This document shows, piece by piece, positions 48,426 through 52,631 of a DNA stretch of 64,000 nucleotides; within the stretch, counting starts at the first letter, position 1; every line of letters begins with the position of its first letter. A program made the translations under genes and the position numbers. The stretch lies in assembly GCA_963205005.1 (NCBI GenBank), contig CAUJHW010000150.1, forward strand, positions 1 through 64,000, read 5' to 3'. The stretch comes from Pseudomonadota bacterium (GTDB lineage Bacteria; Pseudomonadota; Alphaproteobacteria; Caulobacterales; Caulobacteraceae). The notes below the pieces were generated by a model. It was not told the DNA's origin. It saw only the letters and a program-made list of their open reading frames with translations, and did no database searches.

Positions 48426-49037
48426 TTACCGGACGAGGCTTAGACGCTCCGCGTCGGCGAGAATAGAACGCATCGCGTCCGAGGCGGAACCTCCGTCGCG
48501 GTCGTAGGCGCCGCTTTCAAGGATCACATGAAGCGCCCGGCGGGCGCGGCTGACGCGGCTCTTCACGGTGCCCACGGCGCAGCCGCAGATCTCGGCCGCT
48601 TCCTCATAGGCGAAGCCGCCGGCGCCGACGAGGATCAGGGCTTCCCGCTGCTCGGCCGGCAGCATGGCCAGGCCCAGGCGCAGTTCATCCAGCGCCACCG
48701 GCGCCTCGGGATCGTCCACGGCGACGAGGGTCCGTTCCGCCGCCTCCTGGTCGAGCTGGGTGGAACGCCATGACCGGCGCTTCTCGGAATAGAACTGGTT
48801 GCGAAGGATCATGAAGGTCCAGGCCTTCATGTTGGTGCCCATCTGGAAGCTGGCCCGCGCGTCCCAGGCCTTGACCATCGCGTCCTGCGCCAGGTCGTCG
48901 GCGGCGGTCGCGTCGCCGCACAGGGTGCGGGCGAAGGCGCGCAGGTGCGGGATCAGCTTGACCAGGTCGGTCTTGAACGCGTGGTCCTCGGCTTCGGAAC
49001 GGGGCGGACGCGGCTTTTTCTCAGGGGCGTCCATCAT
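48426..49037 (-). CDS. sigT: ECF sigma factor of the general stress response (EcfG/SigT)
   Basis: Sigma-70 regions 2 and 4 (DLAQDAMVKAWDARASF, AYEEAAEICGCAVGTVKSRVSRARRAL); next to nepR. Confidence 0.92.
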   Translation of the reverse strand: MMDAPEKKPRPPRSEAEDHAFKTDLVKLIPHLRAFARTLCGDATAADDLAQDAMVKAWDARASFQMGTNMKAWTFMILRNQFYSEKRRSWRSTQLDQEAAERTLVAVDDPEAPVALDELRLGLAMLPAEQREALILVGAGGFAYEEAAEICGCAVGTVKSRVSRARRALHVILESGAYDRDGGSASDAMRSILADAERLSLVR

Positions 49038-49282
49038 GACTTCTCCGGACCCCGCTCGTCGGCACGACGAAGAATTTCGAGGAATTCGTCCGGGACGTCC
49101 TCGCCCACCACCTCGTCGAACATCTGGCGCAGGCGTACGCCGATCGCCTGCTGGCGCAGGCGCGCCTCATCGAGCGCAGCGGAGGCCCGGCGGCTCTCCG
49201 GTAAGGGACGTTGTTCGATCATGTCGTCGGCGCCGCGCTCACGCGAGGACCGCCCCCTCTTGTGTTCCTTGTCGTCGCTCAA
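49034..49282 (-). CDS. nepR: Anti-sigma factor NepR
   Basis: IGVRLRQMFDEVVGEDVPDEFLEILRRAD, conserved NepR core; overlaps sigT start. Confidence 0.92.
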   Translation of the reverse strand: MSDDKEHKRGRSSRERGADDMIEQRPLPESRRASAALDEARLRQQAIGVRLRQMFDEVVGEDVPDEFLEILRRADERGPEKS

Positions 49283-49330
49283 CGCACGCGTCCCACCGAG
49301 GTTCCCAGGTCAGACGCGCAGGATGCGAAA

Positions 49331-49370
49331 AACCTTGACCGTTGGGAACCGGTTCCCTGCGATGGCGTTA
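49331..49370. promoter_or_regulatory. Divergent nepR/phyR promoter region with shared palindromic -35
   Basis: GGGAACCGGTTCCC (49344-49357); plus strand GGAAC-N16-CGTT to 49369, minus strand GGAAC-N17-GGTT ending at 49331. Confidence 0.7.
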
Positions 49371-49453
49371 GGTTTCACGATGGGGCCTGGTCGGGGGATC
49401 TCCCCCCCGCACCGGGCTGCCAGGTGAAAACCGCAACACGGGAGGGGTCACCC

Positions 49454-50254
49454 TTGAGTCTGCTAGCCCGACTGGCGCCGCATCTTCCCTATGTGCGCCG
49501 CTATGCGCGCGCCCTTACCGGCGACCAGACCACCGGCGACCACTACGTCCGGGTGGCCCTTGAGGCGCTTGCCGCCGGAGAGCGCACCCTTGAGGCCGGG
49601 CTCACCCCCAGGGTCGCGCTCTACCATGTGTTCCACGCCATCTGGTGCTCCACGGGCGCGCAGCTCGAACCCGGCCAGGATGACGAAGGCTACGCCGACG
49701 AGGCGACACGGCGGCTGATGCGCATCGCCCCGCGGTCGCGACAGGCCTTCCTGCTCACGGCCCTCGAGGGCTTCACTCCCTCCGAGGCCTCGCAGATCCT
49801 CGATACCGACTTCGCGGAGGTCGAGCAGCTGATCTCGGCCGCCCAGGCCGAGATTGACGCCGAACTGGCCACCGATGTCCTGATCATCGAGGACGAGCCG
49901 GTGATCGCCGCCGACATCGAGGCGCTGGTGACGGAGCTGGGTCATACGGTTGTGGACATCGCCGCCACGCGGTCGGAGGCTGTCGATGCGGTGAGCCGCA
50001 GGACCCCCGGACTCGTTCTGGCCGACATCCAGCTGGCCGACGGCTCTTCCGGCATCGACGCGGTGAAGGACATCCTGGCCCGCTACGACATCCCGGTGAT
50101 CTTCATCACGGCCTTCCCGGAACGGCTGCTGACGGGGGAACGGCCGGAGCCCACCTTCCTGATCACCAAGCCCTTCCAGCCGGAGACGGTGAAGGCGGCG
50201 ATCGGCCAGGCGCTGTTCTTCCATCCCCGAAATTCGAGCCGCCAGGCGGCCTGA
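49454..50254 (+). CDS. phyR: PhyR response regulator (sigma-like domain + receiver)
   Basis: N-terminal SLLARLAPHLPYVRRYARALTGDQTTGDHYVRVALEAL sigma mimic; C-terminal receiver VLIIEDEPVIAADIEALV...ADIQLADGSSGIDAV. TTG start after GGAGGGG. Confidence 0.95.
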   Translation: MSLLARLAPHLPYVRRYARALTGDQTTGDHYVRVALEALAAGERTLEAGLTPRVALYHVFHAIWCSTGAQLEPGQDDEGYADEATRRLMRIAPRSRQAFLLTALEGFTPSEASQILDTDFAEVEQLISAAQAEIDAELATDVLIIEDEPVIAADIEALVTELGHTVVDIAATRSEAVDAVSRRTPGLVLADIQLADGSSGIDAVKDILARYDIPVIFITAFPERLLTGERPEPTFLITKPFQPETVKAAIGQALFFHPRNSSRQAA

Positions 50255-50278
50255 ACGGACTGAGCGGTAAACCGGACG

Positions 50279-50305
50279 GGGCGTCGCCTTCACGAGGCGA
50301 CGCCC
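50279..50305 (+). terminator. Terminator stem-loop between phyR and the convergent small gene
   Basis: GGGCGTCGCC-ttcacga-GGCGACGCCC followed by ttt. Confidence 0.8.
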
Positions 50306-50323
50306 TTTCCATGTGTGCGGGCC

Positions 50324-50584
50324 TTATGGAGCGGTGGAAGCTGCGGGAGTCGGCGAGGTCGGCGCCGGCGTGTCGAAGGTGGCGGCGGTGGCGGCGCGCT
50401 GGGCCGTTGTCTGTTCGCTGCCGGCCAGGTCGGGGGCCTTCCAGGTCCAGGCCGCGAACAGGCCAAGCGCCGCCAGCAGGGTCCCGAACAGCAAAACCCA
50501 GAAGACATGCTGGCCCCAGCGCCCCTGGCGGGCGCGGGTGGCGGTGAGGATGGGCCTCCGGGCCTCGCGGGAAAGGATCGCCAT
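50324..50584 (-). CDS. Small single-TM protein with Ala/Thr/Pro-rich tail
   Basis: 86 aa MAILSREARRPILTATRARQGRWGQHVFWVLLFGTLLAALGLFAAWTW... Confidence 0.7.
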   Translation of the reverse strand: MAILSREARRPILTATRARQGRWGQHVFWVLLFGTLLAALGLFAAWTWKAPDLAGSEQTTAQRAATAATFDTPAPTSPTPAASTAP

Positions 50585-50637
50585 GGTCGAACTCCTGTTG
50601 GAACACCTCGCCGCCACGCGGGAGATGCAGGAGGACA

Positions 50638-50663
50638 AACGCGCGCCTGCGTCGCGACGTTCC
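50638..50663 (-). promoter_or_regulatory. Candidate EcfG/SigT promoter for 50324-50584
   Basis: Minus strand GGAAC-N17-CGTTT, about 55 nt before the start codon. Confidence 0.6.
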
Positions 50664-50709
50664 GGCGACGCTGTCTGGGCGGCGGGTTCACAAAAAATCA
50701 CCGACGCCG

Positions 50710-50734
50710 GGAACACACGCTGGGGTCGCGGGTT
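50710..50734 (+). promoter_or_regulatory. Candidate EcfG/SigT promoter of the small RNA
   Basis: GGGAAC-N16-GGTT, ending about 7-10 nt before the first base of the predicted RNA stem. Confidence 0.55.
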
Positions 50735-50740
50735 CTATAT

Positions 50741-50855
50741 CTGCGGAGGCGGCGACGCCCCCCCGACTTGAGACCGGCGAACATGCCGGTCTGCCGTCTC
50801 CGCACCCCCCTCTTCTCGATGACACCTCTGGCGGGTCCCCGACCCGCCATTTTTT
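50741..50855 (+). ncRNA. gsrN: Candidate GsrN-like stress small RNA
   Basis: Intergenic and no plus-strand CDS; outer stem GCGGAGGCGG/CCGTCTCCGC, inner hairpin AGACCGGC-gaacat-GCCGGTCT, seven-C single-stranded loop, terminator GGCGGGTC-ccc-GACCCGCC-A-TTTTTT. Boundaries are estimates. Confidence 0.7.
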
Positions 50856-50880
50856 CGCGCGGCCGGAACTGTCGCAGAAA

Positions 50881-50912
50881 AAGGGGCGGCGGGCCCAGGC
50901 CCGCCGCCCCTT
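50881..50912. terminator. Strong GC-rich stem-loop downstream of 50936-51283
   Basis: AAGGGGCGGCGGGC-ccag-GCCCGCCGCCCCTT. Confidence 0.8.
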
Positions 50913-50935
50913 ATGATTTCCCGCTACCCACGCCG

Positions 50936-51283
50936 TCAGCGGGGCGCGCCGTTCTCCCAGTAGTACCGGCCCGAACCGGAGTCGTAGTAGTAATACCGGC
51001 CAGCGCGCTCGTCGTAGTACTGGCGCCGGTTGTTCGAGGCCGCGCCGCAGCCGCCGTCCTCACGGCAGCCCTTCACGGCGCCGACCGTGCCGCCGACCGC
51101 CGCGCCGACCGCCGCGCCGGTTCCGACGCCGACGTCACCGGAGATCGCGCCGATGGCGGCCCCGGCCAGGCCTCCCAGGGCGGCGCCGCCCAGGGCGCTG
51201 CGTTCGGTGTTGCCGGAGGTGGTGCAGGCGCTGGCCAACAGGCCTGCGCCGATCAGGGCGATGAGGGGCTTCAGCGTAGGCAA
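50936..51283 (-). CDS. Glycine-zipper outer-membrane-like lipoprotein with Tyr-rich tail
   Basis: Lipobox LLASACTTSG; ALGGLAGAAIGAISGDVGVGTGAAVGAAVGG; tail YYDERAGRYYYYDSGSGRYYWE. TTG start after AAAGGAGAG. Confidence 0.78.
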   Translation of the reverse strand: MPTLKPLIALIGAGLLASACTTSGNTERSALGGAALGGLAGAAIGAISGDVGVGTGAAVGAAVGGTVGAVKGCREDGGCGAASNNRRQYYDERAGRYYYYDSGSGRYYWENGAPR

Positions 51284-51318
51284 GGCGACTCTCCTTTGGA
51301 CATTGTCCCTGGCCGCAG

Positions 51319-51343
51319 AACGCCTGCGGGCAGGCCCAGTTCC
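51319..51343 (-). promoter_or_regulatory. Candidate EcfG/SigT promoter for the glycine-zipper gene
   Basis: Minus strand GGAAC-N16-CGTT. Confidence 0.6.
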
Positions 51344-51346
51344 GCC

Positions 51347-51371
51347 GGAACCAAGGTCACGGTGCGCCGTT
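51347..51371 (+). promoter_or_regulatory. Candidate EcfG/SigT promoter for 51404-51745
   Basis: GGAAC-N16-CGTT. Confidence 0.6.
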
Positions 51372-51403
51372 GCTGAGATGTGCATCCCTTCTGGAGGTCC
51401 GCC

Positions 51404-51745
51404 GTGGCCACATCGTACAGCGATCGCGACCCCGTCCGGGACGACGCGCCTTCCGAGCTGCGCGAGGCCTACGAACTGGGCCGCCGCGACGCCCGGGCCT
51501 CCCGGCGCCGCCATCCGGTAGCGATGACGCTGACCTTCATCGTCGCGGCCGTCGGACTGGTCGTGCTGGCCCTGGCGGCCGTCAACGGCTCGTTCTCCGG
51601 CGCGGGCGCCGTGGTGGATCACAACCTTGCCACCGCCGCCGACACGGCCGAACCTGTCGTCCGCAACGCGGCCAGCGAGGCCAGTCAGGCCGTCCGGGAC
51701 GCGACCTCTAGCAACAGGACGGAACCGTCTGCTCCCAGACCCTAG
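51404..51745 (+). CDS. Small single-TM protein
   Basis: VATSYSDRDPVRDDAPSELREAYELGRRDARASRRRHPVAMTLTFIVAAVGLVVLALAAVNG...; GTG start after GGAGG. Confidence 0.7.
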   Translation: MATSYSDRDPVRDDAPSELREAYELGRRDARASRRRHPVAMTLTFIVAAVGLVVLALAAVNGSFSGAGAVVDHNLATAADTAEPVVRNAASEASQAVRDATSSNRTEPSAPRP

Positions 51746-51785
51746 GCCCGAGGAGGCCGCCCGCCCCCGCTTCACGAGAGTCGAA

Positions 51786-52631
51786 GTGGTCGCCAACATC
51801 GCCTCCGGCAGCGTCGGCCCCGACGCGCCGGACCAGCTTGCCGCCATCTTCGCCGAGTACGGGATCGCGGCGCGCATCTGCGCGCCTGCGCCGCAGGAGC
51901 TCGAATCCTGCCTGAAGGCCGCGGTCGACGCCGGTCCTGACCTGCTGGTGGTGCTGGCGGGAGACGGCACCGCCCGGCTGGCGGCTGAACTCTGCGGACC
52001 GGAGGGCCCCCTGCTCGCGCCCCTGCCGGGCGGGACCATGAACATGCTGCCGCATGCCGTCTATGGCCAGCGCCCCTGGCCAGAGGCCCTGCGCCTGGCC
52101 CTGGACACCGGCGAGAGCCGCACCCTCGGCGGCGGCGAGGTCGAGGGCCATCGGTTCCTCTGCGCCGCCATACTCGGCTCTCCGGCCCTATGGGCGCCGG
52201 CGCGCGAGGCGGTGCGCAAGGGCAAGGTCAGGCTCGCGTGGATCCGCGCCCAGCGGGCGCTCCGGCGCGCGTTCACCGGTCGTCTGCGCTACGCTCTCGA
52301 CGGCGGCGCCCGGGACAAGACCGAGGCCATGATCCTGATGTGCCCGATCGCCTCGAAGGCCATGGACGCCGACGCCGGCGCGCTGGAAGCCGCTGCGCTC
52401 AATGTCCATGGCGCCGCCGAGGCCCTGCGCCTGGGCGTCAACGCCATACTGCGCGACTGGCGGCTCGATCCGGCGGTCGAGAACCAGCCCTGCCAGGTCG
52501 CCCGGGTGTGGTCGCCGCAACCGATCCCCGCGATCCTCGACGGCGAGACGGTGAGGCTGGGCAGCGTCATCGAGGTTCGCTACGTGCCCTGCGTTGCCCG
52601 GATTCTGGCCCTGCCGCGCGAGGCCGCGTGA
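51786..52631 (+). CDS. Diacylglycerol kinase catalytic-domain (YegS/DagK-like) protein
   Basis: DLLVVLAGDGTARLAAELCG...LPGGTMNMLPHAVYG. Start uncertain. Confidence 0.85.
   Translation: MVANIASGSVGPDAPDQLAAIFAEYGIAARICAPAPQELESCLKAAVDAGPDLLVVLAGDGTARLAAELCGPEGPLLAPLPGGTMNMLPHAVYGQRPWPEALRLALDTGESRTLGGGEVEGHRFLCAAILGSPALWAPAREAVRKGKVRLAWIRAQRALRRAFTGRLRYALDGGARDKTEAMILMCPIASKAMDADAGALEAAALNVHGAAEALRLGVNAILRDWRLDPAVENQPCQVARVWSPQPIPAILDGETVRLGSVIEVRYVPCVARILALPREAA

Follow-up and report, generated by a model that had tools for sequence, protein, structure and literature searches.

A gsrN small RNA gene beside phyR in a Phenylobacterium genome in which katG was not found

Gene neighbourhood and promoters

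The window, i.e. the whole 64,000-nt stretch of Caulobacteraceae DNA analysed here, carries phyR, whose product is the anti-anti-sigma regulator of the general stress response, at 49454..50254 on the plus strand, with a TTG start and the Pfam domains PhyR_sigma2, PhyR_sigma-like and Response_reg. Beyond phyR, the minus strand encodes the anti-sigma factor NepR (49034..49282; Pfam NepR, 52.7 bits), the sigma factor SigT/EcfG (48426..49037; Pfam Sigma70_r2 and r4_2) and a HisKA_2-type histidine kinase. On the other side of phyR, a small minus-strand open reading frame (50324..50584, 86 aa), predicted to encode a membrane protein and belonging to no Pfam family, is divergent from the predicted transcript of gsrN (50743..50855, plus strand). 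The transcript is defined by a match to the Rfam family RF01529, with its +1 placed at G50743 via the numbering of Caulobacter GsrN. The predicted start is thus ~490 nt past the phyR stop codon (50254), which revises the ~600 nt of an earlier reading made from the sequence alone.

A location near phyR, nepR and sigT is typical of gsrN outside C. crescentus, and phyR lies on the gsrN strand, at most 2 kb upstream, in 69/71 loci; in C. crescentus, in contrast, gsrN is distal to phyR. The presence of GsrN near phyR in Phenylobacterium has already been reported, and the predicted Brevundimonas and Phenylobacterium homologues (Tien et al. 2018, PMC5869019, Fig. 9) share with the window the RNA family, the promoter type and the position near the core stress-response genes. 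The RNA family and this position are therefore known, and the window locus is a further member. It differs from those homologues in having a single small divergent gene between phyR and gsrN.

The putative sigma-EcfG (SigT)-type promoter of gsrN at 50710..50734 on the plus strand is composed of a GGAAC -35 element (50710-50714; GGGAAC when read from 50709), a spacer of 16 nt and a GGTT -10 element (50731-50734). The form GGAAC-N16/17-NNTT, at a fixed distance 5' of the RNA, is found in all 145 related loci long enough to judge, 133 of which have a spacer of 16, and in 20/20 further loci fetched without using the core pattern. The assignment to sigma-T/EcfG, as expected for GsrN, is made from these motifs only.

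A second site of this type, GGAAC-N17-CGTT at 50638..50663, lies on the minus strand upstream of gsrN and appears to direct transcription away from it, towards the small membrane-protein gene. The EcfG form of this divergent site is conserved in 90/115 loci (0.45 expected), and 87 loci carry a homologue of the small membrane-protein gene upstream of gsrN in the same orientation. In most loci a further stretch, which probably holds another small gene, lies in between. This conserved divergent stress promoter beside gsrN is one of the two useful additions of this work, the other being the independence of gsrN and katG described below.

Directly 3' of gsrN, a glycine-zipper protein gene is encoded on the minus strand (from 50936), ~190 nt away in the window versus 600-750 nt in most loci. 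A long GC-rich inverted repeat at 50882-50917, whose minus-strand reading ends in CCCCTTTTTCT, is probably the terminator of this gene, converging on that of gsrN. A terminator scan of 49000-51800 found the gsrN terminator as the sole one.

Structure, conservation and identity of the RNA

The predicted fold, calculated for the RNA from 50741, is a two-stem structure followed by a terminator, in which an 8-bp hairpin is stacked on a 12-bp outer stem and a loop is left unpaired. Its minimum free energy is -55.9 kcal/mol, compared with -35.3 +/- 3.3 kcal/mol for the mean of shuffled sequences (z = -6.3), and 0/200 shuffles are as good. The core of the outer stem is formed by GCGGAGGCGG (50743-50752) and CCGTCTCCGC (50794-50803), and gains one pair per side, T50742-A50804 and C50753-G50793, so that the two arms span 50742..50753 and 50793..50804. 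Between the 5' arm and the inner hairpin lies the 17-nt recognition loop GACGCCCCCCCGACTTG (50754..50770), which includes a run of seven C at 50758-50764. The hairpin AGACCGGC-GAACAT-GCCGGTCT (50771..50792) pairs 50771-50778 with 50785-50792 around the loop GAACAT. A single-stranded C-rich linker (50805..50828) leads to the intrinsic terminator GGCGGGTC-CCC-GACCCGCC-A-T6 (50829..50855), which has a 9-bp stem, a 3-nt loop and a T6 tail. The coordinates that the sequence-only reading had given for the promoter, the stems, the C7 run and the terminator were all confirmed in the sequence.

That reading had also set covariation in relatives as a test, and both stems do covary. Two-sided changes occupy 76 cells across 66 distinct sequences, against 21.9 in shuffles, of which 0/500 reach 76; a partner-sliding control yields at most 13. 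Over this set, 98.6% of cells pair and 9/20 pairs show two-sided changes: 6/8 in the inner hairpin and three in the outer stem, where 99.4% of cells are paired. Most loci behind the 66 sequences were picked by an exact core pattern, and therefore the invariance of the core in this set proves nothing. Covariation is repeated in a set of 24 matches gathered by model score rather than sequence pattern (37 two-sided cells versus 10.3; 0/500 shuffles), although this alignment leans towards the structure because it was fitted to it. The segment CCCCCC(C)GAC is kept in nearly all of the 24 matches, while the TTGAG right after it varies. Fold and covariation together describe an outer stem and hairpin that expose a C-rich 5' loop, as in GsrN.

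The RF01529 (CC3552) covariance model matches 50745-50849 on the plus strand with 75.6 bits (E 3e-10), above the curated gathering score of 50 bits. It is the sole Rfam match in the window and the sole RF01529 match of the whole genome; the locus is conserved and no other gsrN was found, as the earlier proposal would have it.

GsrN (ccna_R0081) is a 106-nt sRNA of Caulobacter crescentus, with six tandem C in its C-rich 5' loop and internal 5' ends at C53/T54, around which the RNA is processed, and at T64 (PMC5869019). Since no use of the name CC3552 was found in the papers searched, whether RF01529 is GsrN was examined directly, with the Caulobacter family member L007 in place of the C. crescentus NA1000 sequence. 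Counted from the G of GCGAAGG, positions 53, 54 and 64 of L007 are C, T and T, and its loop contains six C as published. Published target sites of GsrN, such as UCAAGUCGGGG (PMC5869019), are complementary to the loop of the RF01529 family. These agreements imply that RF01529 and the published GsrN are the same RNA, as judged from the positions matched in L007.

The C. crescentus RNA and the window locus share the sequence-structure family, the sigma-EcfG-type promoter, the outer stem and hairpin presenting a C-rich loop, the C-rich linker and the intrinsic terminator, and differ in the loop, with six C in C. crescentus versus seven in the window. The proposal of a GsrN homologue is well borne out by the 75.6-bit match, the EcfG promoter form, the phyR-nepR-sigT synteny, the covarying stems and the C-rich loop. 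We conclude that the locus is almost certainly the gsrN gene of a Phenylobacterium, predicted to specify a SigT-transcribed RNA of ~110 nt whose C-rich loop would pair with G-rich mRNA sites. An sRNA gene, easily missed by protein-based annotation, is thereby confirmed in the general stress response locus of this genus.

katG and the targets of the RNA

In C. crescentus, the GsrN loop pairs with the leader of the catalase-peroxidase gene katG and activates katG (PMC5869019), the one target of GsrN that is proven. In contrast, no katG (TIGR00198) was detected in the genome that hosts the window (completeness 96.8%), and with it the pairing to a katG leader, the functional hallmark in C. crescentus, is missing here. 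The target in this genome therefore cannot be katG, and the katG activation step does not seem to apply. Since the katG target is species-specific, its absence lowers the claim of action via katG and not the identity of the RNA as GsrN.

Across Phenylobacterium, katG is present in 36/55 genomes with gsrN and in 13/18 without it (Fisher p = 0.77), so the two distributions are not linked in the genus; 19 of the 55 gsrN-bearing genomes are without katG. Within Phenylobacterium, gsrN and katG are thus gained and lost independently of each other, and the C. crescentus target consequently does not carry over. A G-tract near the katG start occurs mainly in C. vibrioides-like genomes, as far as a weak, underpowered test among katG-bearing relatives can tell. 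There, a GTCGGGG-type site is located at about -36 in the katG leader, with duplex energies that do not differ significantly from shuffles and start codons that are often uncertain. We lean somewhat towards the view that the conserved role of GsrN in Caulobacteraceae is not katG activation, given the intact RNA in katG-less genomes and the apparent confinement of the G-tract site to near relatives of C. crescentus. Phenylobacterium genomes without katG would offer a clean system for finding the other targets of GsrN.

The apparent absence of the known target raises the question of whether the gene is a GsrN relic that is no longer functional. The missing katG would fit such a history, as would the 18/73 genus genomes without gsrN, which indicate that the gene can be lost. 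However, the promoter, both stems, the C7 loop and the terminator are all intact, and gsrN persists in 19 katG-less genomes of the genus, where decay would be expected of a relic; we regard this explanation as very improbable. Stem-loops ahead of a terminator may also form an attenuator, in which case the element would be a structured leader or attenuator belonging to a plus-strand gene further 3', and not a free small RNA. This is scarcely credible here, as the terminator is strong, the immediate downstream gene has the opposite orientation, the next gene likely to be read from the plus strand begins >500 nt 3' of gsrN, and in Caulobacter the homologous RNA is known as a free sRNA that undergoes processing (PMC5869019).

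The genome contains a single PF00199 catalase, katE (L164), whose leader holds TCGGGGGG, complementary to the loop, ~100 nt before the start. None of the close orthologues of katE inspected within the genus has the G-run, which seems to be a chance match, and katE is for this reason not proposed as a substitute target. The only place in the genome where the extended loop complement TCAAGTCGGGG occurs is the antisense strand of gsrN.

For a functional gsrN, work on Caulobacter suggests how the RNA may act: there, GsrN is activated by sigma-T, Hfq stabilises the full-length RNA, and cleavage yields a stable 5' form (PMC5869019). By analogy, PhyR would release SigT/EcfG under stress, and the sigma factor would transcribe the ~110-nt RNA in the host organism, starting at the GGAAC-N16-GGTT promoter and stopping at the intrinsic terminator. 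The 12-bp stem and the stacked hairpin could keep the 17-nt C-rich loop single-stranded, and the loop might then pair with G-rich mRNA sites, altering translation or stability. Hfq would presumably have the same effect as in Caulobacter. Cleavage may fall within the outer stem, on its 3' arm, and give a stable 5' form with the loop; by the numbering matched through L007, the equivalent of the mapped C53/T54 cleavage (PMC5869019) would be 50798/50799.

Distribution among relatives

RF01529 was detected in 210/300 genomes drawn from the family Caulobacteraceae, and every match in the order and class draws fell within the family. A model of our own, built from the 66 gsrN members, likewise matched in the family and nowhere outside it. 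This family-limited distribution agrees with the published BLAST result, which was limited to Caulobacter, Brevundimonas and Phenylobacterium. The named-genome scan gave 119 loci; among the matches listed, the titles are, or fit, Caulobacterales. A divergent, overlooked gsrN was considered for the 18 negative Phenylobacterium genomes, and the 66-member model found none in them.

Two RF01529 matches per genome were observed in the Brevundimonas-genus genomes G113, G156, G160, G163, G208 and G079, the second match of G079 (C33:21126-21242) scoring 35 bits, under the cut-off. These double matches are possibly gsrN paralogues.
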